NCBI RefSeq assembly: GCF_006715165.1
Contig: NZ_VFMS01000001.1
Location: forward strand, 1,426,001 to 1,490,000
Direction: 5' to 3'
Length of the DNA stretch: 64,000 bases
Source: Arthrobacter sp. SLBN-122
GTDB lineage: Bacteria > Actinomycetota > Actinomycetes > Actinomycetales > Micrococcaceae
The position numbers and the translations under genes are program-made. Shown piece by piece: positions 49,278 to 64,000 of the stretch; position 1 is the stretch's first letter; every line of letters begins with the position of its first letter. The notes under the pieces were generated by a model. It was not told where the DNA came from, searched no databases, and saw nothing but the letters and a program-made list of their open reading frames with translations.

Positions 49278-50636
49278 TCAGTGTGTCATGGCGGTGAAAG
49301 CCTGATCGTAGATGGCCAGCGCCTGCTTCACCTCATCTGCCGTGACGACGGCGGGCGGCACCACGTGGAGGCGGTTGTCGGCCAGGAACGGCAGCAGGCC
49401 CAGGCGGAGCAGTTCAGCCTTGAGCCGGCCCATGTACTCCGCGTTGACAGGGGTGCGGGAGTCCCGGTCCTGGACGAGTTCCAGGGCCCAGAAGACGCCG
49501 CGGCCGCGGACTTCTCCGATGACGCCGTGCTTTTCGGCCAGTGCGAGCAGGCCGGGTTCGAGGTGGTCGCGGCCGATCCTGGCGGCATTGCCGACGATGT
49601 CTTCTTCTTCGAAGGCTTCGATGGACGCCACCACCGAGGCCGCGGCGAGCGGGTGCCCGGAGTAGGTGAGCCCGCCGGGGAAGACCCGCTCATCGAAAGT
49701 GGCGGCGATGTCGCCGGAGATGATGACGCCGCCTACGGGGACGTAGCCGGAGTTGACGCCCTTGGCGAAGGTGATGAGGTCCGGGGTGACGTTGAAGGCG
49801 TCGAAGGCGAACCAGTCGCCGGTGCGGCCGAAGCCGGCCATGACCTCGTCGAGGATCATCACGATGCCGTATTCGTCGCAGAGCGCCCGGACGCCTTCGA
49901 GGTAGCCGGGTGTGGGGACCAGGATGCCGGCGGTGCCGGGGACGGTTTCCAGCAGGATGGCGGCGATGGACTGCGGGCCTTCGGCCTGGATCACCCGACG
50001 GAGGTGGTGGAGGGCGCGCTCGGTTTCCTGTTCGGGGGTTTCGGCCCAGAACTCGGAGCGGTAGAGGTAGGGGCCGAAGACGTGGACGTGGCCGCGGGAG
50101 TATTCGTTGGGGATGCGCCGCCAGTCACCGGTGGCAACGATGGCAGCGCCGGTGTTGCCGTGGTAGGAGCGGTAGCGCGAAAGGACTTTGTCGCGGCCGG
50201 TGTGCAGGCGGGCCATCCGGATGGCGTTTTCGTTGGCGTCTGCACCACCGTTGGTGAAGAACACCTTTTCCATGTTGGCGGGTGCGTGGGACAGGATCTT
50301 GGCTGCGGCGGTGGCCCTGACGTGGTTTGCGGCCGCGGGTGCCACGGTGGCCAGGGTGGTGGCCTGCTGGGCGATGGCGGCTATGACTTTGGGGTGCTGG
50401 TGGCCGATGTTGGTGTTGACGAGCTGGCTGGAGAAGTCCAGGTAGGTGTTGCCGTCATGGTCCCAGACGGTGCTGCCGGATCCGCCGGCGATCGCCATAG
50501 GGTTCAGGGACTTCTGCGCGGACCAGGAATGGAAGACGTTGGCCCGGTCGAGGGCTACGACGTCGGCGTTGCTGAGGGATACAGCGGCCGACGTCTTGGC
50601 GTCTGCTGCGGGCAGGAGTGCCTGGTTGGCGACCAT
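49278..50636 (-). CDS. Class III omega-aminotransferase
   Basis: The 452-residue PLP enzyme transfers an amino group from an omega-amino acid or amine to a keto acid. The PLP lysine is K292 (LITFAKGVNSGYVPVGG), and D263 lies in ILDEVMAGFGRTG, the cofactor-ring Asp. FFTNGGADANENAIRMAR is the phosphate-binding region. Together with the MSDH-like gene and PucR regulator it fits a beta-alanine:pyruvate type reaction giving malonate semialdehyde. Taurine or GABA are alternatives. It is divergent from the PucR gene. Confidence 0.9.
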   Translation of the reverse strand: MVANQALLPAADAKTSAAVSLSNADVVALDRANVFHSWSAQKSLNPMAIAGGSGSTVWDHDGNTYLDFSSQLVNTNIGHQHPKVIAAIAQQATTLATVAPAAANHVRATAAAKILSHAPANMEKVFFTNGGADANENAIRMARLHTGRDKVLSRYRSYHGNTGAAIVATGDWRRIPNEYSRGHVHVFGPYLYRSEFWAETPEQETERALHHLRRVIQAEGPQSIAAILLETVPGTAGILVPTPGYLEGVRALCDEYGIVMILDEVMAGFGRTGDWFAFDAFNVTPDLITFAKGVNSGYVPVGGVIISGDIAATFDERVFPGGLTYSGHPLAAASVVASIEAFEEEDIVGNAARIGRDHLEPGLLALAEKHGVIGEVRGRGVFWALELVQDRDSRTPVNAEYMGRLKAELLRLGLLPFLADNRLHVVPPAVVTADEVKQALAIYDQAFTAMTH

Positions 50637-50709
50637 GGCGTTTCCTCTCGGTAAGTGGAATGGGAAGTTCCTTCATCATCCGCTTTCCGTCAGGGCTAGT
50701 GCCGTATAC

Positions 50710-50721
50710 GTTTGTACAACC
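50710..50721. promoter_or_regulatory. Putative PucR operator
   Basis: GTTTGTACAACC, a near-perfect palindrome centred on TGTACA, lies between the divergent aminotransferase and pucR-like genes, 39 bases before the latter's ATG. Confidence 0.5.
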
Positions 50722-50759
50722 CATCTGTTTCTGTTCGACGTTTTCACACCGGGGATCAC

Positions 50760-52283
50760 ATGCCGCCAAATCTCAATGTCCTGCTGCGCAGCCGCTCGCT
50801 GAAGCTGCGGCTGGTGGTGCCGGACCTCGGGGCGCCTCGCCTTGAGGAGCCCGTCAGCTGGGTCCACAGCTCGGACCTGGCGGACCCCACCCCGTTCCTG
50901 GACTCCGGCCAGCTGTTGCTGACGGACGGTACCCAGTTCCCCGTGGAGGGTGAGTTCCGGAAGGGGTATGAGCAGTATGTGGGCCGGCTGGTGGAGCATG
51001 GCATCGTGGGACTGGGCTTTGCCACCCAGGTAGTCCACGGGACGTTGCCTGCAGGCCTCGAGGAAGCCTGCAGGGATCAGGGCTTGCCGCTGGTCGAGGT
51101 ACCGGACCGGACACCCTTTATCGCCATCATCCGCACCGTTGCGGACTATCTGGCGCGGGAAGAGCACGCACGGGCCGAGTGGTCGCTGCAGGCCCAGCGT
51201 GCCATCTCGCGGGCAGCCCTGCGGCCTGACGGGTTGACCTCGATCCTCGGTGAGCTCGAGCGCCAGCTCCACAGCTGGGTTGCCCTGTACGATGCCGCGG
51301 GAAACTATGTGCGCATGCCGCGGAACCGCCCGGTCCCCTCCGGCATTGCCCCAGAGGTCACGGAGAAGGTGCGGCGCGCTCTCGACCTCGGTACCAGGTC
51401 GGCGTCCCATCTGAACGTCCGAGGGCAGTCGGTGACCCTGCAGACTCTTGGCCGGAAAGACAACCTGCGCGGCGCCCTGGTACTGGGCGCCATCGAACCC
51501 CTCGACCCCGCCCGGGCGGACATTGTCAACAGCGTGATCGGTCTGGCCAGCCTGGCCCTGGAGCAGGCGCGGACCCTCGATACGGCACGCAGGCACCTGC
51601 GCGCGGGAGTCTTCGAGCAGTTGCTGGCGGGCAGCACCGACGTCGCATGCCGCACAGCCCGCCAGGTGTGGGGCCAGCTGCCACGGGATCCGCTGATGGT
51701 GACCGTCTCCCGGCAGGAGAGCCCGGCGCCAAACCTGTTGGAGGCCTTGGAGCTGCTGGCGGACGACCACCGGGGTGCCGTGTTCTATGCGCTGCGGGGC
51801 GAGGTCCTGGTGATCCTGGCGGGCCAGGCCCACCAGGGGAAGGTTTTGGAGCTGCTGGGGCGCCACGGCGCGACGTGTGGTGTCTCGGCCGAGGCACCAA
51901 TGGAGGGGCTTGCCGGTGCCCTGGAAGAAGCCACACGTGCGTTGCGGCGGGCAGCTGAAGTGGGCAGGGCCGTCGTCGAATTTTCCGAGCTCTCGACAGG
52001 CGGCATGCTGGGCCTGCTTCGCGAGGAGAAGGCCGGCCCGGTGGCCCGGGGGTTGCTGCAGCCGCTGATCAGCCATGACGCGGCCGAGCAGACGGAACTG
52101 CTGGAAACCGTACGGGAATGGTTTGCCAATAACTGTGTCTGGGACAAGACAGCGCGCCGTCTGGGAGTGCACCGCCATACGCTCAGGAACAGGATTGATA
52201 CTGCCGGCCGAATCCTTGGACTGAACCTGGACAGCATGCAGGACCGCCTGGAGCTGTACGCGGCTGTTCAGTTCCTGGAATAG
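50760..52283 (+). CDS. PucR-family transcriptional regulator
   Basis: This regulator of 507 residues has an N-terminal PucR sensor domain (LNVLLRSRSLKLRLVVPD ... WVHSSDLADPTPFLDSGQLLLTDG). A GGDEF-like/CdaR middle region follows. The C-terminal HTH is FANNCVWDKTARRLGVHRHTLRNRI, diagnostic of the family. PucR members activate catabolism of purines, GABA, beta-alanine or related nitrogen compounds. It is divergent from the omega-aminotransferase and convergent with the MSDH gene, both likely targets. ATG at 50760 follows GGGGA. Confidence 0.9.
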   Translation: MPPNLNVLLRSRSLKLRLVVPDLGAPRLEEPVSWVHSSDLADPTPFLDSGQLLLTDGTQFPVEGEFRKGYEQYVGRLVEHGIVGLGFATQVVHGTLPAGLEEACRDQGLPLVEVPDRTPFIAIIRTVADYLAREEHARAEWSLQAQRAISRAALRPDGLTSILGELERQLHSWVALYDAAGNYVRMPRNRPVPSGIAPEVTEKVRRALDLGTRSASHLNVRGQSVTLQTLGRKDNLRGALVLGAIEPLDPARADIVNSVIGLASLALEQARTLDTARRHLRAGVFEQLLAGSTDVACRTARQVWGQLPRDPLMVTVSRQESPAPNLLEALELLADDHRGAVFYALRGEVLVILAGQAHQGKVLELLGRHGATCGVSAEAPMEGLAGALEEATRALRRAAEVGRAVVEFSELSTGGMLGLLREEKAGPVARGLLQPLISHDAAEQTELLETVREWFANNCVWDKTARRLGVHRHTLRNRIDTAGRILGLNLDSMQDRLELYAAVQFLE

Positions 52284-52296
52284 GCCGGAAACGAAG

Positions 52297-52332
52297 GCGA
52301 GGACCTCCGGCAGGTGTGCCGGAGGTCCTCGC
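52297..52332. terminator. Bidirectional terminator, pucR-like / mmsA
   Basis: Perfect 16-bp stem (arms 52297-52312 and 52317-52332) with the 4-base loop GGTG, between two convergent genes. Confidence 0.92.
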
Positions 52333-52376
52333 TGTCAGGGCCCAGTGCCAGGTGCTGACATCCTGTGGGTGCTGCC

Positions 52377-53882
52377 CTAGTTCTGCGGGAAGCCCAGGTT
52401 AATGCCGCCGTGGCTCGGGTCGAGCCAACGGGAGGTGATGGCCTTTTCGCGGGTGAAGAACTGGAAGCCCTGGAGGCCGTAGGCCTTGGAGCTGCCGAAG
52501 ATGGAATCCTTGAACCCTCCGAAGGAGTAGTACGCCACCGGAACCGGGATTGGCACGTTGATACCCACCATGCCCACTTCCACCTCGTTCTGGAAGCGGC
52601 GGGCCGCGCCGCCGTCGTTGGTGAAAATAGCCGTGCCGTTGCCGTACGCACTGGAGTTGATAAGGTCAAGACCCTCTTCATAGCTGTGGACGCGGACCAC
52701 CGCCAGGACCGGGCCGAAGATCTCCTCGGTGTAAGCGCGGGAGGTGACCGGGACCTCGTCGATCAGGGTCGGGCCGAGCCAGAAGCCGTTCTCGTCGCCG
52801 TCCACGTTGATGCCGCGGCCGTCCGCCACAACCTTTGCGCCATCCTCAACGGCAATGTCGATGTAGGACGCCACCTTGTCGCGGTGCTGCTTGGTCACCA
52901 GGGGGCCCATGTCGCAGTTGCGGCGTCCGTCACCGATCTTCAGGGTCGCCATCCGGGAGGTGATCTTCTCGATCAGTTCGTCAGCGACGGGCTCGACGGC
53001 GACGACGACGCTGATGGCCATGCAGCGTTCACCGGCGGATCCGAAGCCGGCGTTGATGGCGGCGTCGGCAGTCAGGTCGAGGTCGGCATCGGGCAGGACC
53101 AGCATGTGGTTCTTCGCGCCGCCCAACGCCTGGACGCGCTTGCCGTTTTTGGCTGCAGTTTCGTAAATGTACTGGGCAATGGGGGTGGAGCCCACGAAGG
53201 AGATCGCCTTGACGTCGCGGTGCTCGAGGAGTCCGTCGACGGCTTCCTTGTCTCCGTGCAGGACGTTGAACACGCCTGCCGGAAGGCCTGCTTCGGTGAA
53301 CAGTTCGGCGAGCCAGTTGGCGGCGGAGGGGTCCTTCTCGCTGGGCTTGAGCACGACGGTGTTGCCGGCGGCGATGGCGACAGGCAGGAACCACAGGGGA
53401 ACCATGGCCGGGAAGTTGAACGGGCTGATGATGCCCACGACACCGAGGGGTGCCTTGGTGGAGTAGACGTCCACTCCGGTGGAGACGTTTTCGGAGTGCT
53501 CGCCCTTGATCAGGTGCGGGAAACCAGTGGCCAGTTCCACGACCTCCAGGCCGCGGGTGATTTCGCCCAGCGCGTCCGAGACGACTTTGCCGTGCTCAGC
53601 GGTGATGATCTGGGCGAGCTCGCCTTTGCGCTCGTTCAGCAGTTCGCGGACGCGGAACAGGATCTGCTGGCGCTTGGTGATGGAGAGGTCACGCCAGGCA
53701 GGGAAGGCTTTGTGGGCGGACGAGATGGCGGTTTCGATGTCCGAGGCATTCGCCAGGGCGACGCGTTTGGTTTCGATGCCGCGGGCCGGGTCGTAGACCG
53801 GGGCGGTGCGGTCCCCCGAGGAAAGGGCCTCGGCGCCGTCGATCCAGTGGGACAGGACGGGAAGTTCTTCGTTCGCGGTCAC
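52377..53882 (-). CDS. mmsA: CoA-acylating methylmalonate/malonate-semialdehyde dehydrogenase
   Basis: The 501-residue NAD-dependent enzyme converts methylmalonate or malonate semialdehyde to propionyl- or acetyl-CoA. The catalytic Cys is C287 (NAGFGSAGERCMAISVVV). The family-specific ALGGAKNHMLV replaces the Glu-containing segment of ordinary aldehyde dehydrogenases. IISPFNFPAMVPLWFLPVAI completes the nucleotide site. Start is GTG at 53882 (VTANEELPVL); the open frame extends 350 codons farther but with no homology. It could complete beta-alanine catabolism with the aminotransferase, or serve valine or inositol breakdown. Confidence 0.92.
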   Translation of the reverse strand: MTANEELPVLSHWIDGAEALSSGDRTAPVYDPARGIETKRVALANASDIETAISSAHKAFPAWRDLSITKRQQILFRVRELLNERKGELAQIITAEHGKVVSDALGEITRGLEVVELATGFPHLIKGEHSENVSTGVDVYSTKAPLGVVGIISPFNFPAMVPLWFLPVAIAAGNTVVLKPSEKDPSAANWLAELFTEAGLPAGVFNVLHGDKEAVDGLLEHRDVKAISFVGSTPIAQYIYETAAKNGKRVQALGGAKNHMLVLPDADLDLTADAAINAGFGSAGERCMAISVVVAVEPVADELIEKITSRMATLKIGDGRRNCDMGPLVTKQHRDKVASYIDIAVEDGAKVVADGRGINVDGDENGFWLGPTLIDEVPVTSRAYTEEIFGPVLAVVRVHSYEEGLDLINSSAYGNGTAIFTNDGGAARRFQNEVEVGMVGINVPIPVPVAYYSFGGFKDSIFGSSKAYGLQGFQFFTREKAITSRWLDPSHGGINLGFPQN

Positions 53883-54350: not shown

Positions 54351-54353
54351 AGT

Positions 54354-54364
54354 TTGTCTGACAA
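54354..54364. promoter_or_regulatory. GntR operator-like palindrome upstream of gntR
   Basis: TTGTCTGACAA, TTGT and ACAA arms around CTG, fits the FadR/GntR site form T-N-G-T-N3-A-C-N-A. It lies 44 bases before the GntR gene start; a TAGAGT element directly precedes it. Confidence 0.7.
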
Positions 54365-54408
54365 TCTGCACACGCAGTAGTCGACTTTCGAATGTATTGG
54401 GGAAGCTC

Positions 54409-55122
54409 ATGGCGGAATCAAACATGTCAGCTGCGGCACTTCCTCTGCGGATGTCCCCGGTGGCCTCGGTGTCGCGCAGGGATGGCGTCGTCAATGAGAT
54501 CCGGCGCGCCGTTGTGCTTGGCACCATCAAGCCCGGCGAGAAGCTCACGGAGGTCCAGCTTTCCGAATGGCTCAACGTCAGCCGGCCCACTGTCCGAGAA
54601 GCCCTCAACCAGATGGCCCAGGAAGGACTCCTGGTCCAGGAGCCGTACCGCGGCCTCAGGGTGGCAACCCTGGACGCAGCAGCCATCATGGACCTCGCCA
54701 ACACCCGCATGGCCTTGGACATGCTGGCCGCCACCGCGATCGTGGAGGATGACTCCGGGCGCCGCATGAAAATGGTGGAGGACAGCTGGGCCGAGTACAG
54801 CCGCGTGGAGATGGATCCGGACCCGGTCATCCGGCACGAAAGCCACGTGTCATTCCACCGGAGCCTGTGGGCCGCGTCAGAGAACGCGCTGCTGCTGCGA
54901 CTCTGGCCGGTCACCGAAGCGCACCTGACCATCATCCTTGCCCAGGACCAGGCGGCACGGGCAGACCCCGTCCGCGCGCACCGGGTCCACGAAAAGCTGG
55001 TTCAGGCCCTTCGAACCAAGGACCTCGACGTCATCCGGAAAGCCTTCAGCGAACACACCATGCGCAGCGCGGAGGAACTCATCCCGCTGCTGGGCAGCGC
55101 AATCCCACAGAAAGAGAGCTAA
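54409..55122 (+). CDS. GntR-family regulator of the hydroxyproline-type operon
   Basis: The 237-residue protein has a GntR HTH (KLTEVQLSEWLNVSRPTVREALNQMAQEGLLVQ, about residues 44-76) and an FCD helical ligand domain (MDLANTRMALDMLAATAIVEDD, RHESHVSFHRSLWAASENALLLRLW). GGGGAAG precedes the ATG. The same 11-bp palindrome occurs upstream of this gene and of the ABC transporter operon, so it probably represses both and itself. It is followed three bases later by an SDR. A likely inducer is hydroxyproline or an intermediate. Confidence 0.88.
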   Translation: MAESNMSAAALPLRMSPVASVSRRDGVVNEIRRAVVLGTIKPGEKLTEVQLSEWLNVSRPTVREALNQMAQEGLLVQEPYRGLRVATLDAAAIMDLANTRMALDMLAATAIVEDDSGRRMKMVEDSWAEYSRVEMDPDPVIRHESHVSFHRSLWAASENALLLRLWPVTEAHLTIILAQDQAARADPVRAHRVHEKLVQALRTKDLDVIRKAFSEHTMRSAEELIPLLGSAIPQKES

Positions 55123-55125
55123 CCC

Positions 55126-55722
55126 ATGAAGATTCTGATCGTAGGCTCGACCGGCCTGCTCGGGTCCTCGGCCGCCGCCGCCCTGCGGGACCGGCACGAG
55201 ATCATCGAAGCCTCCCGCTCCGGGCAGGTCACGGTCGACCTCACCGAACCGGACTCCATCCGCCGGATGTTTGACCGGGTAGGACGCGTGGACGCCGTCA
55301 TATCCTGCACCGGCTCCGTCCCCTTCAAGCCGCTCGCAGAACTCACGGTCAAAGACTTCCGGGTCGGCTTCGAGGACAAGGTCCTCGGCCAAGTCAACCT
55401 GGTCCAGATCGGCGTGGAGTATGTAAACGACGGCGGCTCCTTCACGCTGACCAGCGGCGTACTTGCCCGTGAACCCATCCTGACTGGTGTCGCAGCCTCC
55501 CTGGCCAATGGCGCCCTGGAATCCTTTGTCATGGCGGCCGCGGCCGAGCTGCCGCGCCGTATCCGCATCAATGCCGTCAGCCCCTCGGTCCTTGCCGAGG
55601 CCACCGGCTACCACGACTACTTCCCCGGATTCCAACAGGTTCCCGCGGAAACGGTGGGACGCGCGTACGTAAAGTCCGTCGAAGGCATCCAGACGGGACA
55701 GACGTACGCCCTGGACCAGTAG
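55126..55722 (+). CDS. Short-chain dehydrogenase/reductase
   Basis: A compact SDR-like protein of 198 residues, shorter than the usual 250. The nucleotide motif is VGSTGLLGSSAAAAL at residues 6-20 and the NNAG-equivalent is AVISCTGSVPF. The usual Tyr-x3-Lys is not present in its standard form: the segment SGVLAREPILTGVAASLANGALE carries the conserved Ser region but no YxxxK. Catalysis may therefore be altered or lost. It follows the GntR gene by three bases and is closed by a strong terminator. Its substrate is unknown. Confidence 0.78.
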   Translation: MKILIVGSTGLLGSSAAAALRDRHEIIEASRSGQVTVDLTEPDSIRRMFDRVGRVDAVISCTGSVPFKPLAELTVKDFRVGFEDKVLGQVNLVQIGVEYVNDGGSFTLTSGVLAREPILTGVAASLANGALESFVMAAAAELPRRIRINAVSPSVLAEATGYHDYFPGFQQVPAETVGRAYVKSVEGIQTGQTYALDQ

Positions 55723-55760
55723 ACAGGCAGCGCGCGCACCCCTCCCGCGGGCAACCCCCG

Positions 55761-55798
55761 CAAAAGCCGGTCTTCACACCCGTGAAGGCCGGCTTTTG
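55761..55798 (+). terminator. Strong terminator after the SDR
   Basis: A 17-bp stem with one G-T pair (CAAAAGCCGGTCTTCAC against GTGAAGGCCGGCTTTTG) and a 4-base loop; the descending arm ends GCTTTTGCTG, giving a modest T-run. Confidence 0.92.
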
Positions 55799-55977
55799 CT
55801 GTTTCCAGTGGCAGTCCTCTGCGGCGCGGTCATCAGGAATTTACATTCGCGGTCTTCCTCACCCCCTCGCCGGCCCCGGCCCCGGAAGCACCCGGAAGCC
55901 GCGTTACAGCTTTATTTCCTTCACACTCGTCTTTTTTGCAGCAGCCACTGGACGTGGCGCCGGTCACAGGTTTACGC

Positions 55978-56006
55978 TTGAAGCACGAAGCTGATTGTAA
56001 GACAAT
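55978..56006 (+). promoter_or_regulatory. Promoter with overlapping GntR operator for ABC operon
   Basis: A -35-like TTGAAG (55978-55983), a 17-bp spacer, and a -10-like GACAAT (56001-56006). The palindrome TTGTAAGACAA (55995-56005) covers the -10. This is the same class of site as at 54354. Transcription would begin near 56013, leaving a leader of about 160 bases before the start at 56176. Confidence 0.65.
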
Positions 56007-56175
56007 AAAACAACCAAACGACATCCGGATGGCAACATCTTCAGCCATTCGCCCCCAGGACAGCTCGGCAGCATGGTGGCCGCGTCCGATCAGAAAAACT
56101 TCCATCCAGTCGGCGTATTTTCCTTAGTTTTTCCCGCCGGCCCCCTGACCCGTTTCCTGTAAAGAGGGTTTTAAA

Positions 56176-57030
56176 ATGACCAAAACAAGCAAGATTGTCC
56201 TCGCCATCCTGGCCGTCCTGGTCCTCGGGGGGATTGGCGGCACATTGGGCGGCAAAATGTTCGGCGGCAACAGTGCCACGGCAGCGTCATCAGTCTCCGC
56301 CCAGGGCTCCTTTATCGATGACATCAAAAAGCGCGGCGAGCTCCGCGTCGGCGTGGCCATCGCCCCGCCCATGACCACCCAGCAGCCGGACGGGACCCTC
56401 GGCGGCCCCAACCTCATTCCCCTCGAGGAACTGGCCAAGCAACTGGGCGTGAAGCTGGTTCCGGTAGCCGCGGAGTGGAAGAACATCGTGGCAGGCTTGC
56501 AGGCCAACCGCTACGACTTCGCTGCAAACTTGGACTACACGGTGGAACGGTCACTGGCGATCTCCTTCACCAACCCGGTCTACGAATACCCCGGCGTGTT
56601 CGTCGTCAAGGCGGATGCCCCATTCACCACAAGCGACCAGGTCATCAGCAGCGGCGGCCAAATTGCCACCGCCCAGGGCGCAGCACCCGAGGCGACGCTG
56701 AAGGGCCTGACCGGGAACATCATGCCGATGGACTCCTACTCCAACGCCATCTCCGCTATCCAGGCAGGACGCGCGGTGGCAGAATTTACCGACCTTCCCA
56801 CCGCAGAGTCCCAGGCACAGGCCGACTCTTCCCTGAAGATCATCGTCCCCAAGCCTGAAATCTACTCCGGCACCGCCGCCTACGGGGTTCCCGCCGGCGT
56901 CGACGCCCGGTCCATGCAGATCGTGAACATCGCCATCGAGCGCGCCCAGAAGAGCGGCACTCTGGCACAGGCCTACACCAAGGTCAACTACTTCGAGGTC
57001 AACAACCTCGGCGACCTCGCCAAGAAGTGA
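56176..57030 (+). CDS. ABC transporter substrate-binding protein (family 3)
   Basis: The 284-residue extracytoplasmic protein binds a polar amino acid for uptake. An N-terminal hydrophobic segment at residues 7-27 (IVLAILAVLVLGGIGGTLGG) lacks a lipobox Cys, so it is a signal peptide or anchor rather than a lipoprotein. The mature part begins with the family start FIDDIKKRGELRVGVAIAPP. The Arg-Asp type ligand site is suggested by NRYDFAANLDYTVERSLAISF. It heads a unit with permease and ATPase genes. The neighbours suggest hydroxyproline or proline-betaine as substrate. Confidence 0.9.
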   Translation: MTKTSKIVLAILAVLVLGGIGGTLGGKMFGGNSATAASSVSAQGSFIDDIKKRGELRVGVAIAPPMTTQQPDGTLGGPNLIPLEELAKQLGVKLVPVAAEWKNIVAGLQANRYDFAANLDYTVERSLAISFTNPVYEYPGVFVVKADAPFTTSDQVISSGGQIATAQGAAPEATLKGLTGNIMPMDSYSNAISAIQAGRAVAEFTDLPTAESQAQADSSLKIIVPKPEIYSGTAAYGVPAGVDARSMQIVNIAIERAQKSGTLAQAYTKVNYFEVNNLGDLAKK

Positions 57031-57064
57031 TCCGCCAGGAACAACGCGGCCAAGGAGCCAAGAC

Positions 57065-57802
57065 ATGAACTACAACTTCGACTGGAACGTGGTGGCCAAC
57101 GCCTTCCCTGCAATGATGCAGGGGCTGGGTCTCACCCTCCAGATCACTGTGATCACCATCGTCATCAGCATGATCCTCGCGGTGCCCCTGGCAGTGGGCC
57201 GCATGTCGAAGATCGAGGTGATCCGCTGGGCTGCCCAGGGATACATCGAGATCTTCCGCTGCACCCCGCTGCTGGTCCAACTGTTCTGGATCTTCTACGC
57301 ACTGCCTGCCCTCACCGGGGTTACGCTCCCCGGATACGCGTCGGCTGTCATTGCCCTCACGGCGAACCTCACCGCCTTCATGGCCGAAACCTACCGCAGC
57401 GGTTTCCAGTCCGTTCCGGTTGAACAGGTCGAAGCCGGCAGGATGCTGCAGCTGAGCCGTTTCCAGCAGCTGCGCTACATCATCGTCCCGCAGGCCCTGC
57501 GCCAGCAGCTGCCGGTCATCCTCTCCCTGAACATCTCCCTCTTCAAGGACACGGCGCTGGTCTCCACCATTGCCGTCTCGGACCTGATGTTCATCTCCAA
57601 CACGATTTCTTCCCAGACCTACCGGGCCCTGGAAGTCTTCACCCTCGCAGCGGGCGTCTACTTCGCCATCGCCTTCCCGATTTCGCTGATCACCAGCTCC
57701 ATCGAACGCAGGATGCAGAACAGCTCCGGCATGGGTGCCCCGGCGCCCAGGAGGCTCGCATCGCGAATGATGCCCGGAACCCGTCCGGTGGTGCCGGCAT
57801 GA
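57065..57802 (+). CDS. Amino acid ABC transporter permease (HisMQ type)
   Basis: A 245-residue membrane subunit with five to six helices. The HisM/HisQ signature is GYIEIFRCTPLLVQLFWIFYALP and the coupling-helix EAA region is VEQVEAGRMLQLSRFQQLRYIIVPQALR. This family usually works as a dimer, here probably a homodimer because a second permease gene is absent. AAGGAG precedes the ATG at 57065; the end overlaps the ATPase start by four bases. Confidence 0.93.
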   Translation: MNYNFDWNVVANAFPAMMQGLGLTLQITVITIVISMILAVPLAVGRMSKIEVIRWAAQGYIEIFRCTPLLVQLFWIFYALPALTGVTLPGYASAVIALTANLTAFMAETYRSGFQSVPVEQVEAGRMLQLSRFQQLRYIIVPQALRQQLPVILSLNISLFKDTALVSTIAVSDLMFISNTISSQTYRALEVFTLAAGVYFAIAFPISLITSSIERRMQNSSGMGAPAPRRLASRMMPGTRPVVPA

Positions 57803-58665
57803 GCCATTCACTGAGCACCGGGCTTCCTCCGGTCCAGCAGCAGAAGGACAATGATGGAACCGAACAGAAGGGCATCAAGGTGACAGCGCTCGAGCCCACC
57901 CCCCAGCTCACCGGGAATCGGCAGGTCCTGGTGGAAGCCCGCGGCCTCCAAAAAGCCTTTGGACCCCGCCAGATCCTCAAGAATGTCGACTTCGAGATGA
58001 ACAAGGGCGACATCACCGTCATCATCGGCAAGAGCGGCTCCGGCAAATCCACCCTCCTTCGCGCCCTGGCCGGCCTCACCGACCCGGACGAGGGCCAGAT
58101 CCTGATCGACGGGCACACGGTCTTCGCGGACCAGAAACGCACCAAGGAATGGGACAACATCCGCTCCGAAGTGGGCATGGTCTTCCAGGCCTACACGCTC
58201 TGGCCGCACATGAACGTGCTGGACAACCTCGTCCTTGCCCCCCGCAAGGTTCGCGGCGCCGCCGCCTCGGAATCCCGCGACCGGGCCGAAGCCGCCCTGG
58301 GCGAAGTAGGCATGGCCCACCACGTCCTCAGCAAGCCCACCCAGCTCTCCGGCGGTGAGCGCCAGCGCGTCGCCATCGCCCGGGCCCTGATGATGAAGCC
58401 CAAGCTCCTGCTCTGTGACGAAATCACCTCCGCCCTGGACCCACCCGTCGCGGCAGAAGTACTCGACGTCCTGCGCCGGCTCAAGGAAGAGGACGGCATC
58501 GCGGTCGCCCTGGTCACCCACGACATGGCCTTCGCCTCCAAAGCCGCGGACCGGGTGGTGTTCTTCCACAACGGCGAAATCGCCGTCAACGCCACCCCGG
58601 AGGCCGCGTTCGACAAGTGCGATAACGAAGACCTCAAGAAATTCGTGGACGCCGTCCGCTTCTAG
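57799..58665 (+). CDS. Amino acid ABC transporter ATP-binding protein
   Basis: The 288-residue ATPase powers the adjoining permease. Walker A is GKSGSGKST at residues 77-85, signature LSGGERQRVAIARAL near 183, and Walker B LLLCDEITSALDP after it. LEPTPQLTGNRQ and the 30 residues before it are a polar N-terminal extension. The start is coupled by ATGA to the permease; a later GTG (VTALEP) is an alternative that would fit the usual length better. It forms a polar amino acid uptake system with the two genes before. Confidence 0.93.
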   Translation: MSHSLSTGLPPVQQQKDNDGTEQKGIKVTALEPTPQLTGNRQVLVEARGLQKAFGPRQILKNVDFEMNKGDITVIIGKSGSGKSTLLRALAGLTDPDEGQILIDGHTVFADQKRTKEWDNIRSEVGMVFQAYTLWPHMNVLDNLVLAPRKVRGAAASESRDRAEAALGEVGMAHHVLSKPTQLSGGERQRVAIARALMMKPKLLLCDEITSALDPPVAAEVLDVLRRLKEEDGIAVALVTHDMAFASKAADRVVFFHNGEIAVNATPEAAFDKCDNEDLKKFVDAVRF

Positions 58666-58716
58666 GCCCACCGGTCCGGAACAGCCCCTCTGCCCCGGAC
58701 CAAGAAAGGAACCATT

Positions 58717-59979
58717 GTGCACACCGTAGTGATTGGTGGCGGCGTCATCGGCCTCACCCAGGCCTACCACCTCGCCCGCGAGGGCGAGGACGTCACCGTC
58801 ATTGACGCCCGGGCCACCGGCCTGGGCGCGTCGAAAGTCAACGCGGGGTGGATCTGCCCCGCGGAATCGGCACCCGTGCCCGGACCCGGCGTCGTCCTCA
58901 AATCCATGAAATGGATGCTCCGCCCGGACAGCCCGCTCTACATCCGGCCGTCCCTGAATCCAGCCTTCATAGGATTCATGCTGGGCATGTGGCGCAAGTC
59001 CAACGCCCGCGACCAGCGCGCCGGCTTCGAGGGCCACCTCCGGCTTGCCGCCGACACCCTGCAGATCTTTGACGAGTACCGCGCCGACGGCATGGACTTC
59101 GAAATGCACACGAACGGGCTGCTCATGGCATTCATGGAGCAGGACAACTTCGACCACCACGTCGACAACCTCGACCTGGCATCCCAGTACGGACGCCAGC
59201 CACGCGTACTGGACCGGGACGCGGTGCACGAGCAGGAACCACTGCTCACCGACGAGGTCCTGGGCGGCATCTACTTCCCGCAGGAACGCCACGTGGATCC
59301 GGGCGCAATGGCCACCGCGCTGCACCAGCGGCTGGTGGCAATGGGTGTCAAGATTATCGAGAACGCCCCCATTGATGCCGTGGACCGCAACGGGGACCGC
59401 GTCACCGCAGTACACAGCCGCGGCAACAGTTACACGGGCGACAACTTCGTCCTCGCTGCCGGCGCCTGGAGCGGAAACCTGTCCAAGCAGTTCGGAGTGC
59501 CCCTGCCCGTCCGTCCCGGGAAGGGGTACAGCGTGGAGGTTCCCGCCCTGGGCCTATGCAGCACCGTCAACCTCTGGGACGCCAAAGTGGCGGTCACCCC
59601 GTTCAACGAACGCCTGCGCCTGGCCGGCACCATGGAGTTCGGCGGCCTGGACGAGAAGATCAACCAGGTCCGCGTCGATGCGATCCTGCGGGCCCCGGCG
59701 AAGTACTTCCGCAACTGGGAGCCGCCCGCGACCAAGCCGACGCCGATGGCCGGCATGCGGCCGATGACACCGGACGGGCTCCCCGTGATCGGAAATCTCG
59801 GACACCTGCAGAACACGTACGTTTCCACCGGCCACGGCATGATGGGCATCACCCTCGCCCCCGGAACGGCTTCGGCACTGACGGATCTGATCGTCCGCGG
59901 GAGGATGGCACCCACCCTCCAGCCCTTCAGGGCCGACCGTTTCCGCGGCGTCCAGCGCCAGCCAGTCCCGGCCCACTAG
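58717..59979 (+). CDS. FAD-dependent D-amino acid (D-hydroxyproline) dehydrogenase
   Basis: A 420-residue DAO-family flavoprotein that oxidises an imino or D-amino acid. FAD is bound by VVIGGGVIGLTQAYHLAREGEDVTVID at residues 4-30. The C-terminal GMRPMTPDGLPVIGNL and STGHGMMGITLAPGTA are the flavin loop and helix of DadA/glycine-oxidase relatives. In hydroxyproline-use clusters the same position is held by cis-4-hydroxy-D-proline dehydrogenase, forming pyrroline-4-hydroxy-2-carboxylate. GTG start with AAAGGA at six bases. Confidence 0.88.
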   Translation: MHTVVIGGGVIGLTQAYHLAREGEDVTVIDARATGLGASKVNAGWICPAESAPVPGPGVVLKSMKWMLRPDSPLYIRPSLNPAFIGFMLGMWRKSNARDQRAGFEGHLRLAADTLQIFDEYRADGMDFEMHTNGLLMAFMEQDNFDHHVDNLDLASQYGRQPRVLDRDAVHEQEPLLTDEVLGGIYFPQERHVDPGAMATALHQRLVAMGVKIIENAPIDAVDRNGDRVTAVHSRGNSYTGDNFVLAAGAWSGNLSKQFGVPLPVRPGKGYSVEVPALGLCSTVNLWDAKVAVTPFNERLRLAGTMEFGGLDEKINQVRVDAILRAPAKYFRNWEPPATKPTPMAGMRPMTPDGLPVIGNLGHLQNTYVSTGHGMMGITLAPGTASALTDLIVRGRMAPTLQPFRADRFRGVQRQPVPAH

Positions 59980-60047
59980 TACCGGACCCCCAAATTTCCT
60001 GCCGCCCAACAGCGGCCTGACCACCTTTTGAAAGGAAGCGCCACACC

Positions 60048-60965
60048 ATGTCTGCACGCACCAAGAAGGAACTCCGCGGCATCCTCGCCGCCGTCACCAC
60101 CCCGTTCACCGAGGACGGCTCCGCCATCGACGAAGCGGCTCTGCAGCGCCAGGTGGAGCGCCTGGTCACCGCCGGCATCCACGGCCTCGTCCCCACGGGT
60201 ACCACCGGTGAATTCACCACCCTCTCCCCCGAGGAGTACCGCCGCGTCATCGAGCTCTACGTCAAAGGCGCCGACGGACGCATCCCCGTAGTCGCCGGCA
60301 TCGGAGCGCTCTCCACCCAAGGCGCCATCGACCTGGCCCAGCACGCCGAAGCCGTCGGCGCGGACGCCATCATGCTGGTCCCGCCGTTCTACGACCCCCT
60401 GGACCTCAGCACCCTCAAGACGTTCCTCTCCGCCGTCGCCGCGTCCATCAACATCCCGATCGTCTACTACAACGTCCCCGGTGCCACCGGCATCCAGCTG
60501 ACCGCCGCTGAACTGGCCGAGCTCGGCCAGATCGACGGAGTGGACTACATCAAGAACACCTCCGATGACGCCGTGGGCCTGGCCGAACTCCTCGCCAACC
60601 ACACCGACAGCATCAAGGCCTTCAACGGCTGGGACACCCTGACGTTCTTCGGCATCGCCTCCGGCGCCGAGGCCTCGGTCTGGGGCACCGCCGGCGTGGT
60701 GCCCGAACTCGCCGTCGAATTCTGGGAGGCCCTTGCAGAACAGAAGGACCTGGTCCGCGCCCGCGAACTGTGGAAGCACCTGTGGGCCATCAGCGACTTC
60801 CTCGAGTCCGTCAACTACGTGGCCGGCATCAAGGCAGGCCTGGAACTCATCGGCGAACCTGTCGGCCCGGCCCGCCTGCCCATCCAGCCGCTGCCCGCCG
60901 AGGAACGCGAGCGTTTCGCCGGCATCCTGCGCAACGCAGGCGTCCTCCCGGCAGTAGCAGCATGA
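60048..60965 (+). CDS. DHDPS-family deaminase/dehydratase (Pyr4H2C deaminase type)
   Basis: The 305-residue (beta-alpha)8 lyase uses a Schiff base on K169 (DYIKNTSDD). Y141 (VYYNVPG) and the GTTGE of residues 51-55 complete the class I aldolase-like site. Synthase members act in lysine synthesis, but in clusters with a proline racemase-family gene and a D-amino-acid dehydrogenase the enzyme is typically pyrroline-4-hydroxy-2-carboxylate deaminase, giving 2-oxoglutarate semialdehyde. ATGA overlap with the epimerase gene. GAAAGGAAG ribosome site. Confidence 0.88.
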   Translation: MSARTKKELRGILAAVTTPFTEDGSAIDEAALQRQVERLVTAGIHGLVPTGTTGEFTTLSPEEYRRVIELYVKGADGRIPVVAGIGALSTQGAIDLAQHAEAVGADAIMLVPPFYDPLDLSTLKTFLSAVAASINIPIVYYNVPGATGIQLTAAELAELGQIDGVDYIKNTSDDAVGLAELLANHTDSIKAFNGWDTLTFFGIASGAEASVWGTAGVVPELAVEFWEALAEQKDLVRARELWKHLWAISDFLESVNYVAGIKAGLELIGEPVGPARLPIQPLPAEERERFAGILRNAGVLPAVAA

Positions 60966-62038
60966 CCGCGCGCTCCGCCACCAAACTCGCCCTCGACGCC
61001 ATCGAGGTCCACGCCGAAGGCGAGCCGGGCCGGATCCTGACCTCCGCCGCGTCCCTCGTGCAGGGCGAGACGATGGCGGAGCGCCTGCAGTACTGCAAGG
61101 ACAACCTGGACTGGCTGCGCCGGCTCATGCTGCATGAGCCGCGCGGTTACCCGGGCCTCTGCTCGGTGATCCTCCTGCCTCCGGTCAACGAAGGCTCCGA
61201 CTTTGGCATCGTGGTCCTGGAACAGGGCGGCTTCACCCCGATGTCCGGATCCAACACCATCTGCGCCGTCACCGCGGCCCTGGAGGAAGGCATCGTGCCG
61301 GTCCGCGGACCGGAAACCGTGGTCACCATCGACACTGCCGTCGGTATCGTCCAGGCAATCGCCAAGGTCCAGGACGGCAAGGTCCTCTCCGTGACCGTCG
61401 TGAACGTCCCGGCGTTCGTCGTCGAACTCGACTTCCCGCTCGAGGTGCCGGAGTTCGGCACAGTGCCCGTCGACGTCGTTTTCGGCGGCCAGTTCTTCGC
61501 ACAGGCCAAGGCAGCGGACCTCGGCTTGGAACTGCACCCGGACAACGGCAAGGAACTTGCCCGCGCCGGTGCCTTGATCAAGATGGCCGCGCTGGAGCAG
61601 ATCGCCTGCGTCCACCCGGACAATCCGCTGATTTCTGGGGTCAACCTGGTCATGCTGCACACCGGCGACCGCGTTCCCGGCCGGCAGGACCGCAACACCG
61701 TGGTGCTGTCCAACGGCAAACTCGTCCCGTCGGACCCGTCCACCTGGACTGGTGCGCTGGACCGCTCCCCCTGCGGGACCGGCACATCGGCCCGGATGGC
61801 AGCCCTGCACGCCCGTGGGCAGCTGGCCATCGGCGAAGACTTCTCCCACCACAGCATCATCGGCAGCGAATTCATCGGGCAGCTGACAGGAACAACGACG
61901 GCGGGCGGCCGCGAAGCGGTCCTTCCCACCATCCGGGGCCGCGGCTGGGTGACCGGCCGCACCCAATGGCTGCTGGACCCCACCGACCCCTTCCCCTCCG
62001 GCTACACCGTCGGCGACATCTGGGCCCCGGGCGCCTAA
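60962..62038 (+). CDS. Proline racemase-family epimerase, Ser/Cys active site
   Basis: The 358-residue enzyme belongs to the proline racemase / 4-hydroxyproline epimerase family. The first catalytic position, usually Cys in MCGH, is Ser95 here (TPMSGSNTICAV), while the second is the standard C271 (DRSPCGTGTSARM). Ser/Cys members are known and include hydroxyproline 2-epimerases with extra dehydratase-type activity. The expected role is L-hydroxyproline to D-hydroxyproline epimerisation, feeding the flavoprotein upstream. Start coupled to the DHDPS gene by four-base overlap. Confidence 0.88.
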   Translation: MTARSATKLALDAIEVHAEGEPGRILTSAASLVQGETMAERLQYCKDNLDWLRRLMLHEPRGYPGLCSVILLPPVNEGSDFGIVVLEQGGFTPMSGSNTICAVTAALEEGIVPVRGPETVVTIDTAVGIVQAIAKVQDGKVLSVTVVNVPAFVVELDFPLEVPEFGTVPVDVVFGGQFFAQAKAADLGLELHPDNGKELARAGALIKMAALEQIACVHPDNPLISGVNLVMLHTGDRVPGRQDRNTVVLSNGKLVPSDPSTWTGALDRSPCGTGTSARMAALHARGQLAIGEDFSHHSIIGSEFIGQLTGTTTAGGREAVLPTIRGRGWVTGRTQWLLDPTDPFPSGYTVGDIWAPGA

Positions 62039-62083
62039 AGCACCCACTTAGACACTTTTCCGAAACAACTGAAAGCAGGAGTT

Positions 62084-63559
62084 GTGAGCCAGTTCATTAA
62101 CGGCAAACTCGTCGACGGCAGCACCAGCGAAACCGTGGACGTCATCGACCCGTCCAACGGCAAAACCATTCGCACCATCACCCTGGCCGGAAGCGACGAC
62201 GTCAAACAAGCTGTGCAGGCAGCCCGCGACGCGTTCCCCGCCTGGTCCCGTGCCACCCCCGGTGAACGGTCCGCCGTCCTCACCAAGTTTGCCGCGTTCA
62301 TGGAAGAACGCGCCGAAGAATTTGCCCAGCTCGAATCCCGCCAGGCCGGCAAACCCATCCGCCTCACCCGCGAATTCGACGTCCCCGGCACCATCGACAA
62401 CATCGCCTTCTACGCCGGCGCAGCCCGCAACCTCGAAGGCAAAGCCACCGGCGAATACTCCCCCGACCACACCTCCTCCATCCGCCGCGAAGCGATCGGC
62501 GTGATCGGTTCCATCTCACCCTGGAACTACCCGCTGCAGATGGCCGCCTGGAAGATCCTGCCCGCCGTCGCCGCCGGCAACACGATCGTCCTCAAGCCTG
62601 CGGAGATCACGCCGTTGACCAGCCTGCTGTTCGCAGAAGTGGCCACCGAAGCAGGCGTCCCTGACGGCGTTATCAACGTCCTCACCGGCCGCGGCTCCAC
62701 CATCGGTGCCGAACTGCTGCGCCACCCGGACGTGGACATGCTCTCCTTCACCGGGTCCACCTCCGTAGGCCGGACCGTCCTGGACGCCGCAGCCACCACC
62801 GCCAAGCGCGTCCACCTCGAGCTCGGCGGCAAGGCCCCCTTCGTCGTCTTCGACGACGCGGACCTTGAGGCAGCCATCCATGGTGCCGTCGCCGGATCAC
62901 TGATCAACACCGGGCAGGACTGCACGGCCGCCACCCGCGCCATCGTCCACCGCTCGCTCTACGAGAAATTCATCGAAGGCGTCGCCGACCTGTACGCCAA
63001 GGTCAAGCTCGGGCCCACTGCCGACCCCGCCACCGACCTCGGCCCGCTCGTCTCCCGCAAGCACCAGGAAACCGTCGCGGGGATGGTGGACCGGGCCCGC
63101 GGCTACGCCCGCGTCATCGGCGGCGGCATCCCTGAAGGGGACCTGGCGGGAGGCTCTTACTACCGGCCCACCCTGGTCGCCGACGCCACCCCGGACAGCG
63201 AAATCTTCCGCGACGAAGTCTTCGGCCCCGTCCTTGCCGTCACCCCGTTCGACACCGACGACAAAGCCATTGAACTGGCCAACGACACCCCCTACGGCCT
63301 GGCCGCTTCGGCATGGACCAAGGATGTCTACCGTGCCCTGCGAGCCACCCGCGAAATCCGCGCCGGCGCCGTCTGGGTCAACGACCACATCCCGATCATC
63401 AGCGAAATGCCACACGGCGGCTTCAAGCAGTCCGGCTTCGGCAAGGACATGTCCACCTACTCCTTCGACGAATACACCGTGGTCAAGCACGTCATGTTCG
63501 ACCTCACCGGACAGCAGGCCAAGGAGTGGCACCGCACCATCTTCACCCTGGAGGGGTAG
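62084..63559 (+). CDS. NAD(P)-dependent aldehyde dehydrogenase (semialdehyde type)
   Basis: The 491-residue enzyme has catalytic C280 (LINTGQDCTAATRAI) and E246 (VHLELGGKAP). The closing ISEMPHGGFKQSGFGKDMSTYSFDEYT is typical of gamma-aminobutyraldehyde dehydrogenases of the YdcW/PatD type. In this cluster the expected reaction is 2-oxoglutarate semialdehyde to 2-oxoglutarate; an aminobutyraldehyde activity is the alternative. The GTG start is unusually close to its AGGAG (two bases), so the start may be slightly different. Confidence 0.9.
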   Translation: MSQFINGKLVDGSTSETVDVIDPSNGKTIRTITLAGSDDVKQAVQAARDAFPAWSRATPGERSAVLTKFAAFMEERAEEFAQLESRQAGKPIRLTREFDVPGTIDNIAFYAGAARNLEGKATGEYSPDHTSSIRREAIGVIGSISPWNYPLQMAAWKILPAVAAGNTIVLKPAEITPLTSLLFAEVATEAGVPDGVINVLTGRGSTIGAELLRHPDVDMLSFTGSTSVGRTVLDAAATTAKRVHLELGGKAPFVVFDDADLEAAIHGAVAGSLINTGQDCTAATRAIVHRSLYEKFIEGVADLYAKVKLGPTADPATDLGPLVSRKHQETVAGMVDRARGYARVIGGGIPEGDLAGGSYYRPTLVADATPDSEIFRDEVFGPVLAVTPFDTDDKAIELANDTPYGLAASAWTKDVYRALRATREIRAGAVWVNDHIPIISEMPHGGFKQSGFGKDMSTYSFDEYTVVKHVMFDLTGQQAKEWHRTIFTLEG

Positions 63560-63564
63560 GCAGA

Positions 63565-64000
63565 ATGACGACGACGGGACGTGGGCGCCGCTTCGACGGC
63601 AAGACCGCACTGGTCACCGGGGCTGGCGGCGGGATCGGATCCGCCATCAGCCGCCGGCTGGCCGCCGAAGGTGCCCGCGTGTTCGTGGCCGATGCCAATG
63701 AAACAGCCGCAAAGGAAGTAGCCGACGACCTGACGGGTGAAGGTTTCTCCGCCGAGGCGCTGGTCTTCGACCTTCTCGACCCCGAAGCGTCAGCGGCGGC
63801 CGTCCAGCACATCGTTGATGCCCGCGGCCGGATTGACGTGCTGGCCAACAACGCCGGCGTTAACCGACGCGGGGACCTGCTCTCCCTTTCGGAGTACGAC
63901 TGGGACCTGTCCTTTGCCGTCAATGTGGACGCACTGTTCCACCTGTGCCGTGCGGTGCTGCCGCACATGATCGGCGCAGGTGGGGGTGCCATCGTGAACA
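63565..64000 (+). CDS. SDR-family oxidoreductase, partial at window end
   Basis: The first 145 codons of a classical short-chain dehydrogenase. The NAD motif is TGAGGGIG at residues 18-25 and NNAG follows near residue 97 (LANNAGVNRRGDL). The catalytic Ser-Tyr-Lys lies beyond the window edge. It is five bases downstream of the aldehyde dehydrogenase and so belongs to the same operon. Its place in hydroxyproline breakdown is unclear; it may act on another hydroxy-acid or a side substrate. Confidence 0.85.
   Translation, partial: MTTTGRGRRFDGKTALVTGAGGGIGSAISRRLAAEGARVFVADANETAAKEVADDLTGEGFSAEALVFDLLDPEASAAAVQHIVDARGRIDVLANNAGVNRRGDLLSLSEYDWDLSFAVNVDALFHLCRAVLPHMIGAGGGAIVN

Follow-up and report, generated by a model that had tools for sequence, protein, structure and literature searches.

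A divergent imino-acid catabolic gene cluster in Arthrobacter sp. SLBN-122 and its possible role in 4-hydroxypipecolate use

Genes of the cluster and its surroundings

We analyzed a window of 64,000 nucleotides (G000:C1:1426001-1490000) from the 4.47 Mb genome of Arthrobacter sp. SLBN-122. The right-hand part of the window holds a cluster of ten genes that an earlier note had taken for a complete hydroxyproline (Hyp) use cluster. The genes, from a GntR regulator to a short-chain dehydrogenase (SDR2), all lie on the forward strand in the order that had been noted; the last runs over the end of the window, beyond which lies a third short-chain dehydrogenase (SDR3). Comparison with related loci set this cluster apart from canonical Hyp clusters and raised the tentative possibility that its substrate is 4-hydroxypipecolate.

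The cluster starts with a GntR regulator carrying an FCD domain (~54409..55122; PF00392 and PF07729; start chosen by eye), followed by SDR1, a small short-chain dehydrogenase of the PRK07578 subfamily (55126..55722; NF005754 272 bits, cut-off 167). An amino-acid ABC transporter comes next, with a solute-binding protein (56176..57030; PF00497), a single permease (57065..57802; PF00528 and TIGR01726), and an ATPase (57799..58665; PF00005). The enzymes that follow are a DadA-like FAD D-imino-acid oxidase/dehydrogenase (DAO; 58717..59979; PF01266; NF001933 286 bits, under the cut-off of 383), a DHDPS-family class I enzyme that we propose to be a pyruvate aldolase and that has the invariant Lys169 (60048..60965; PF00701), an epimerase of the proline racemase superfamily (PRS) with a Ser/Cys dyad (60962..62038; PF05544 354 bits), and an aldehyde dehydrogenase (ALDH) of the aminobutyraldehyde-dehydrogenase subfamily (62084..63559; NF010000 722.8 bits, cut-off 615), a resemblance that the earlier note had rightly remarked on. 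SDR2 (63565..64000, on to 64338 in window numbering, G000:C1:1490338, forward strand) starts five bases after the ALDH stop, and SDR3 (64335-65081 in window numbering; L003:2335-3081) overlaps it by four bases. Overlaps of four bases also join the permease to the ATPase gene and the DHDPS to the epimerase gene, so that the cluster reads as an operon. The nine proteins scanned each scored above the Pfam cut-off of the family named. SDR2 scored above the cut-off of an NCBIfam SDR subfamily and SDR3, also an SDR, below the cut-offs listed; searches of solved structures with both returned matches too broad to inform.

A further module, absent from the earlier note, lies at 49278-53864 and ends ~0.5 kb upstream of the GntR gene. 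It comprises a class III aminotransferase of the PRK06062 subfamily on the reverse strand (49278..50636; NF004718 742 bits, cut-off 472), which probably acts on beta-alanine, a PucR-type regulator on the forward strand (50712..52283; an open reading frame of uncertain start whose family was named by reading), and a CoA-acylating methylmalonate/malonate-semialdehyde dehydrogenase (MMSDH) on the reverse strand (52377..53864, start approximate; TIGR01722 683 bits, cut-off 448.5). The PucR-type gene has a match beside MMSDH and aminotransferase genes in locus L064, and similar genes were recognized by reading in L056 and L059. On the other side of the cluster, right after SDR3 and on the opposite strand, there is an aspartate/glutamate-racemase-family gene (L003:3716-4462; TIGR00035 117 bits, cut-off 93) that was not found in the relatives scanned (25 named epimerase loci).

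Separation from canonical hydroxyproline loci

We searched 245 genomes of the family with the epimerase. Matches at E 1e-20 were obtained in 46 genomes and matches at E 1e-100 or better, which define the window type, in five. Another 35 places presented epimerase identities of 40-46%; 23 of these were fetched and 21 were canonical (L069, L071-L090). Loci L048 and L070, which carry a third, PRS2-type epimerase, were excluded from the canonical control. Gene presence was then scored by tblastn (E 1e-10) in 20 canonical Micrococcaceae loci that had been fetched together. A canonical Cys/Cys-type epimerase, a DHDPS protein, a flavoprotein, and an ALDH were found in all 20 loci and an OCD gene in 18. 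None of the 20 presented SDR1, SDR3, the aminotransferase, MMSDH, or the window-type ALDH, and SDR2 gave a single 35% match, at the edge of one locus.

The canonical actinobacterial Hyp cluster, as found on plasmid p232 of Arthrobacter Rue61a and on a Citricoccus plasmid, has in common with the window a GntR-type regulator, a DAO-type flavoprotein, a DHDPS-family enzyme, a PRS epimerase, and often an amino-acid ABC transporter. It differs in its Cys/Cys epimerase (as read from the Rue61a and Citricoccus motifs), in a flavoprotein that stands beside genes for a 2Fe-2S protein and a second oxidoreductase, in a deaminase of the KEFxGDxRR type, in an NADP-type ALDH in the loci fetched, and often in an OCD gene; it has neither the SDR pair nor an aminotransferase or MMSDH gene within 15 kb. 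The pSymB hyp cluster of Sinorhizobium meliloti, whose genes we take to be those named HypD, HypH, HypO, and HypRE, presents the same enzyme classes as the window but differs by identities of 27-32%, a Cys/Cys epimerase, and the absence of an SDR pair from the stretch. The Streptomyces coelicolor genes SCO6289-6293 with HypR resemble the canonical control loci in their make-up, likened here by their description in the available part of PMC6608401. An M9 metallopeptidase gene (L030:18143-20410) was also seen near the canonical cluster of p232.

The window epimerase presents Ser in its first catalytic motif (MSGSN) and Cys in its second (DRSPCG), which makes it a Ser/Cys member of the superfamily. 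Assignment by curated profile HMM was rejected because the protein fell below every PRS cut-off listed. In a tree of 53 epimerase sequences, the 32 window-type rows formed one group (support 100/99), separate from the Cys/Cys 4-Hyp epimerases, from the t3HypD group, and from 4LB0 and the epimerases of rhizobial SDR clusters. By both cut-offs and tree, the window epimerase probably does not belong to a characterized 4-Hyp epimerase subfamily. The enzyme of structure 4LB0 (cluster 9 of eLife 2014), a Ser/Cys protein assigned as a 4-Hyp epimerase in the available part of PMC4113996, shares the catalytic dyad and the SGSN motif of the window epimerase but is 39% identical to it and stands outside its clade. 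The earlier note had named clustering of the epimerase with enzymes of another pathway as a refutation of the Hyp reading, and this came true in part: the epimerase stands in a clade of its own, but not with those of any other proven pathway. Judging from the tree and the search counts, window-type loci are uncommon, and their Ser/Cys epimerases form a separate clade within Actinobacteria.

The other enzymes were found to diverge as well. The flavoprotein is 24% identical to the canonical actinobacterial subunits and 28% to S. meliloti HypO; it is not of a known D-Hyp dehydrogenase type (three-subunit or HypO), and no 2Fe-2S or NAD(P) subunit genes were read in the operon. The DHDPS protein is 28-33% identical to its Hyp counterparts and falls outside their subfamily, without the canonical signature of pyrroline-4-hydroxy-2-carboxylate (Pyr4H2C) deaminase: its motifs are GTTGEF, YYNVPGATG, and KNTSDD, as opposed to GSLGEY, YNNPxDTKVD, and KEFxGDxRR common to ten canonical actinobacterial proteins. 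A profile of 18 window-type DHDPS proteins gave solved DapA-, NAL-, and YagE-type enzymes up to 236 bits, whereas the best score with the profile of canonical Hyp deaminases was 132 bits. The ALDH lies well below the cut-offs for alpha-ketoglutarate-semialdehyde dehydrogenase (348 vs. 770 and 385 vs. 750 bits), and two matches to the canonical-cluster ALDH (54-55%) occur elsewhere in the source genome. Aminobutyraldehyde dehydrogenases (1wnb, 6c43) are among its best solved relatives and it passes the cut-off of their subfamily (PRK13473), but it is far under the aminobutyraldehyde dehydrogenase equivalog cut-off (517 vs. 909 bits). The four enzymes had been matched to the successive Hyp steps, and none of them closely resembles its characterized or canonical Hyp counterpart; the modification of the pathway that the earlier note suspected is supported. 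What remains of the complete Hyp cluster is a seemingly complete set of genes for the catabolism of a cyclic imino acid that is probably hydroxylated, with enzymes other than the canonical Hyp ones. These results indicate that the window cluster is very probably not a canonical Hyp system.

The two types of loci also differ in operator-like sites. We searched for the palindrome GATTGTnnnACAATC, requiring at least nine of the ten letters of ATTGTnnnACAAT. The window contained two matches relative to 0.32 expected: TTTGTCTGACAAT at 54353..54365, and ATTGTAAGACAAT at 55994..56006, upstream of the transporter. A more generic pattern, TNGTNNACNA, was unhelpful (11 matches vs. 5.1 expected). The palindrome was present in 27 of 33 distinct window-type loci, whereas the 21 canonical loci, 405 kb in all, contained two sites, and by inspection the sites of window-type loci mostly precede a GntR, transporter, DAO, or SDR1 gene. 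Loci L054 (the same locus as L015) and L070/L091 (not window type) were left out of this count; two sites of the same type were also found in L070. It is plausible that the GntR protein regulates the operon through these predicted operators. Except for one near the GntR gene, no GATTGTnnnACAATC site precedes the window aminotransferase and MMSDH genes, so that control of these two probably falls to the PucR-type regulator. The motif is not confined to this regulon, since near matches precede an apparent 5-oxoprolinase-type operon elsewhere in the genome. Operator-like GATTGTTCAACAA sites (L109:4947 and 12038) were observed before an apparent NRAMP-type transporter and the 5-oxoprolinase-type operon, which has its own GntR gene.

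Recurrence of the enzyme set and of beta-alanine genes

Among the 25 named loci found with the epimerase, SDR2 and SDR3 were both present in 13 and the window-type ALDH in 11, several of the contigs being short. A phylum-wide search with SDR2 at E 1e-70, in which few candidates per genome were scored, yielded one match in 396, the window's own. In Proteobacteria, a search at E 1e-50 found SDR2 matches in 135 plasmid records, with identities of 60-80% in 121, and many of the carriers are legume rhizobia. Twelve proteobacterial loci read with their annotation contained DHDPS, DAO, ALDH, epimerase, and two SDRs, mostly together with a transporter and a GntR regulator. All six enzyme classes, with the SDR pair among them, were found in rhizobia, Paracoccus, Sulfitobacter, and Pantoea, and the pair was seen in Agrobacterium as well. 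Some genes of L036 and L040 were unannotated and were recovered by tblastn, which gave no transporter match beside the cluster in L041 and only traces in L037. In four unannotated loci (L103-L106), tblastn detected DHDPS, DAO, ALDH, and both SDRs in every case. Identities to the window in the proteobacterial loci compared were 64-70% for SDR2, 38-58% for SDR3, 37-43% for the epimerase, 39-42% for ALDH, 27-31% for DAO, and 26-31% for DHDPS. These uncharacterized operons of rhizobia, Paracoccus, Sulfitobacter, and Pantoea differ from the window in gene order, in a DHDPS protein of a third subfamily, in an epimerase nearer to 4LB0, and in two permeases where the transporter was annotated whole. 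Given the recurrence of the pair with the set, SDR2 and SDR3 belong to the system; their reading as chance neighbors was rejected, and the earlier note's view of the SDRs as extra does not stand. Finally, S. meliloti Rm41 possesses the whole set on pSymA and, on NC_018701, the canonical hyp genes, a coexistence that speaks against the two clusters having the same role.

Several additional observations were made at these loci. An annotated pyrroline-5-carboxylate reductase gene adjoins the GntR gene in four rhizobial clusters (L034:589-1356, L036:627-1409, L040:664-1446, L041:3488-4270), and a choline-sulfatase-type gene lies within the Sulfitobacter operon (L102:4251-5795; TIGR03417 578 bits, cut-off 433). 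The plasmids with loci L105:8462-14756 and L106:13248-24400 come from bacteria whose hosts are Calliandra and Gliricidia, and a DadX-like gene is near the set in L106. On a plasmid of Cereibacter sphaeroides (L099:9992-15919), two SDRs (51% and 44% to SDR2) stand beside ALDH and DHDPS matches, with an FCD regulator and a betaine/proline ABC transporter present and without an epimerase or DAO match. The surroundings of a 4LB0-like gene in Shinella (L097) gave no cluster-protein matches.

We then used the aminotransferase (E 1e-120) and MMSDH (E 1e-150) as queries against 53 genomes and computed by script the distance of their matches to the epimerase on the same contig. Of the 32 window-type genomes, 22 had one or both genes no more than 15 kb from the epimerase, compared to none of the 21 canonical ones; counted by genus, linkage was found in 4 of 11 window-type genera (g1, g271, g422, g8) and 0 of 10 canonical genera. 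Anywhere in the genome, the aminotransferase was present in 31/32 window-type and 15/21 canonical genomes, and MMSDH in 24/32 and 18/21, respectively. The linkage negatives include G800 and G716, in both of which the epimerase is near a contig start. The genomes are not independent, as 17 of the 32 are of one genus, and the g271 loci that were read have common flanking genes.

Both genes stand beside the cluster in Kocuria (L027) and Arthrobacter celericrescens (L006). The operons of Pantoea piersonii and Pantoea soli, like the window, have an aminotransferase and an MMSDH gene adjoining them, together with DadA, and DadX was seen in P. piersonii. The Pantoea aminotransferases belong to another subfamily and are 30-32% identical to that of the window; the one of P. 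piersonii scored 694 bits with the AptA model (cut-off 500). This suggests that the beta-alanine genes of the two Pantoea were recruited independently. DadX and DadA would turn the L-alanine formed by a beta-alanine:pyruvate aminotransferase back to pyruvate. In Paraburkholderia (L107), an AptA-like aminotransferase lies ~2.3 kb from the epimerase, with no MMSDH and no SDR2 in the stretch.

Two variant arrangements were also recorded. Genome G620, of the canonical group, contains a related cluster (L070:7542-19500 and L091:1-1444) with an 87% identical MMSDH, a Ser/Cys PRS protein from a different clade, a class III PLP enzyme, a kinase read as APH-type, SDR1, an ALDH (61%), a transporter, a DHDPS protein (53%), and a GntR regulator; no DAO match was found in stretches L070 and L091. 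The g271 loci L059 and L062, one locus seen in two genomes, have the window-type epimerase and flavoprotein, and a PucR-type regulator, MMSDH, and the aminotransferase adjoin them.

Candidate substrates and the proposed route

Based on gene content and neighborhood, and on the subfamily of the ALDH and the profile scores of the DHDPS protein, we tentatively propose that the cluster serves the uptake and breakdown of a six-ring imino acid with a 4-hydroxyl, likeliest 4-hydroxypipecolate, with beta-alanine as an intermediate. The Ser/Cys epimerase would invert C2 from L to D, and the DadA-like flavoprotein would oxidize the D-form to a cyclic imine that opens to 6-amino-4-hydroxy-2-oxohexanoate. 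The DHDPS-family enzyme could then cleave this compound by a retro-aldol reaction into pyruvate and 3-aminopropanal, which the aminobutyraldehyde-type ALDH would convert to beta-alanine. The neighboring aminotransferase and MMSDH would carry beta-alanine through malonate semialdehyde to acetyl-CoA, and the SDR2/SDR3 pair may interconvert 4-hydroxy epimers through the 4-oxo compound. Given the enzyme classes, and among the ring imino acids with a C4 hydroxyl that were considered, the six-membered one would lead to a C3 aminoaldehyde and thus to beta-alanine, and the five-membered analogue, hydroxyproline, would by the same cleavage give aminoacetaldehyde and glycine.

4-Hydroxypipecolate has been reported from legumes, in one of 22 samples, seeds of C. 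spinosa (available part of PMC11854323), and the reference list of PMC12299671 includes a 1983 report for Calliandra. Bacterial breakdown of hydroxypipecolate was not found among the titles and abstract openings listed from a licence-limited library. It is conceivable, and again a tentative suggestion, that a so far undescribed 4-hydroxypipecolate pathway extends across Actinobacteria and Proteobacteria, with an SDR pair that would invert the 4-hydroxyl and make several stereoisomers usable.

Several observations weigh against this proposal. Counted by genus, the contrast in aminotransferase/MMSDH linkage is no more than suggestive, and neither gene was found in the 14 rhizobial and Rhodobacterales loci scanned. 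In S. meliloti, the canonical hyp genes themselves have a class III aminotransferase (35%) at a distance of ~5 kb, and in G620 MMSDH stands beside the second, PRS2-type epimerase of that genome (L070). By reading, an Ldh-family reductase replaces the DHDPS gene in two g271 loci (L059:8397-12097, L062:7922-11530). Several window-type clusters (Kineosporia, Phytohabitans) are without the SDR pair, and the epimerase detected beside the set on the Rhizobium plasmids of L105 and L106 belongs to the PRS2 type instead of the usual one. The type of ALDH varies, being SSADH-like by reading in Leucobacter and Microbacterium mangrovi and BADH-like in rhizobia and Pantoea. The rhizobial cluster epimerases are sister to 4LB0, at 56% identity, and the window epimerase is the only proline-racemase gene above cut-off in the source genome (G000).

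The last of these points also favors the main rival explanation, ordinary use of trans-4-hydroxy-L-proline by non-orthologous enzymes (epimerase, D-Hyp oxidase, Pyr4H2C deaminase, and alpha-ketoglutarate-semialdehyde dehydrogenase), with the SDRs and beta-alanine genes incidental. The same four enzyme classes do occur within one operon, and the SSADH-like ALDH of Leucobacter would suit this route. The available parts of the sources are compatible with it as well: Ser/Cys enzymes, 4LB0 among them, have been assigned as 4-Hyp epimerases and trans-4-hydroxy-L-proline use was reported for Streptomyces lividans (cluster 11; PMC4113996), and D-Hyp dehydrogenase types differ among bacteria (PMC5144071). 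However, every enzyme is of another subfamily than in all 20 canonical loci, the canonical DHDPS signature is absent, and the ALDH is not of the expected type even though the genome encodes two relatives of that type. The coexistence of both clusters in Rm41 and the recurrence of the SDR pair across phyla further oppose this explanation, and we regard it as less probable than the 4-hydroxypipecolate route, with hydroxyproline still a candidate substrate of the window cluster.

Alternatively, the SDR pair might convert cis-4-hydroxy-L-proline or 4-oxoproline to the trans form, which would then follow the usual route to 2-oxoglutarate. The recurrence of the tandem pair agrees with such use of other 4-hydroxyproline isomers. 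But SDR2 is not specially close to the solved L-KDFDH, whose sequence (8y11/8y46) is one of many SDR2 matches and is not among the 60 SDR3 matches listed, and the beta-alanine genes and aminoaldehyde-type ALDH are left unexplained. We consider this alternative improbable.

Another hydroxylated imino acid or precursor, such as 5-hydroxy- or dihydroxypipecolate, a sulfated form, or baikiain, appears about as improbable. The pyrroline-5-carboxylate reductase genes beside several rhizobial operons could point in this direction, and the sulfatase-type gene of Sulfitobacter would suit a hydroxy acid in sulfated form; a sulfate ester of 4-hydroxypipecolate occurs in nature. Chemically, however, 5-hydroxy compounds are not cleavable by the retro-aldol route without extra steps. 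Finally, cleavage of 4-hydroxyproline by the DHDPS protein as an aldolase into pyruvate and aminoacetaldehyde, and then glycine, shares its chemistry with the 4-hydroxypipecolate route and would suit an aminoaldehyde-type ALDH, but it gives the neighboring aminotransferase and MMSDH no role and is very improbable.

Clusters of this type are easily mistaken for hydroxyproline use. If the 4-hydroxypipecolate route is correct, a branch of the PRS and the SDR pair would gain a function and a DHDPS-family enzyme a new aldolase reaction, and one could test with named genes how bacteria of soil and nodules break down a non-protein amino acid of legumes. Were the substrate a hydroxyproline isomer after all, the annotation would still be corrected by the distinctness of this cluster from canonical ones and by the recurring SDR pair.

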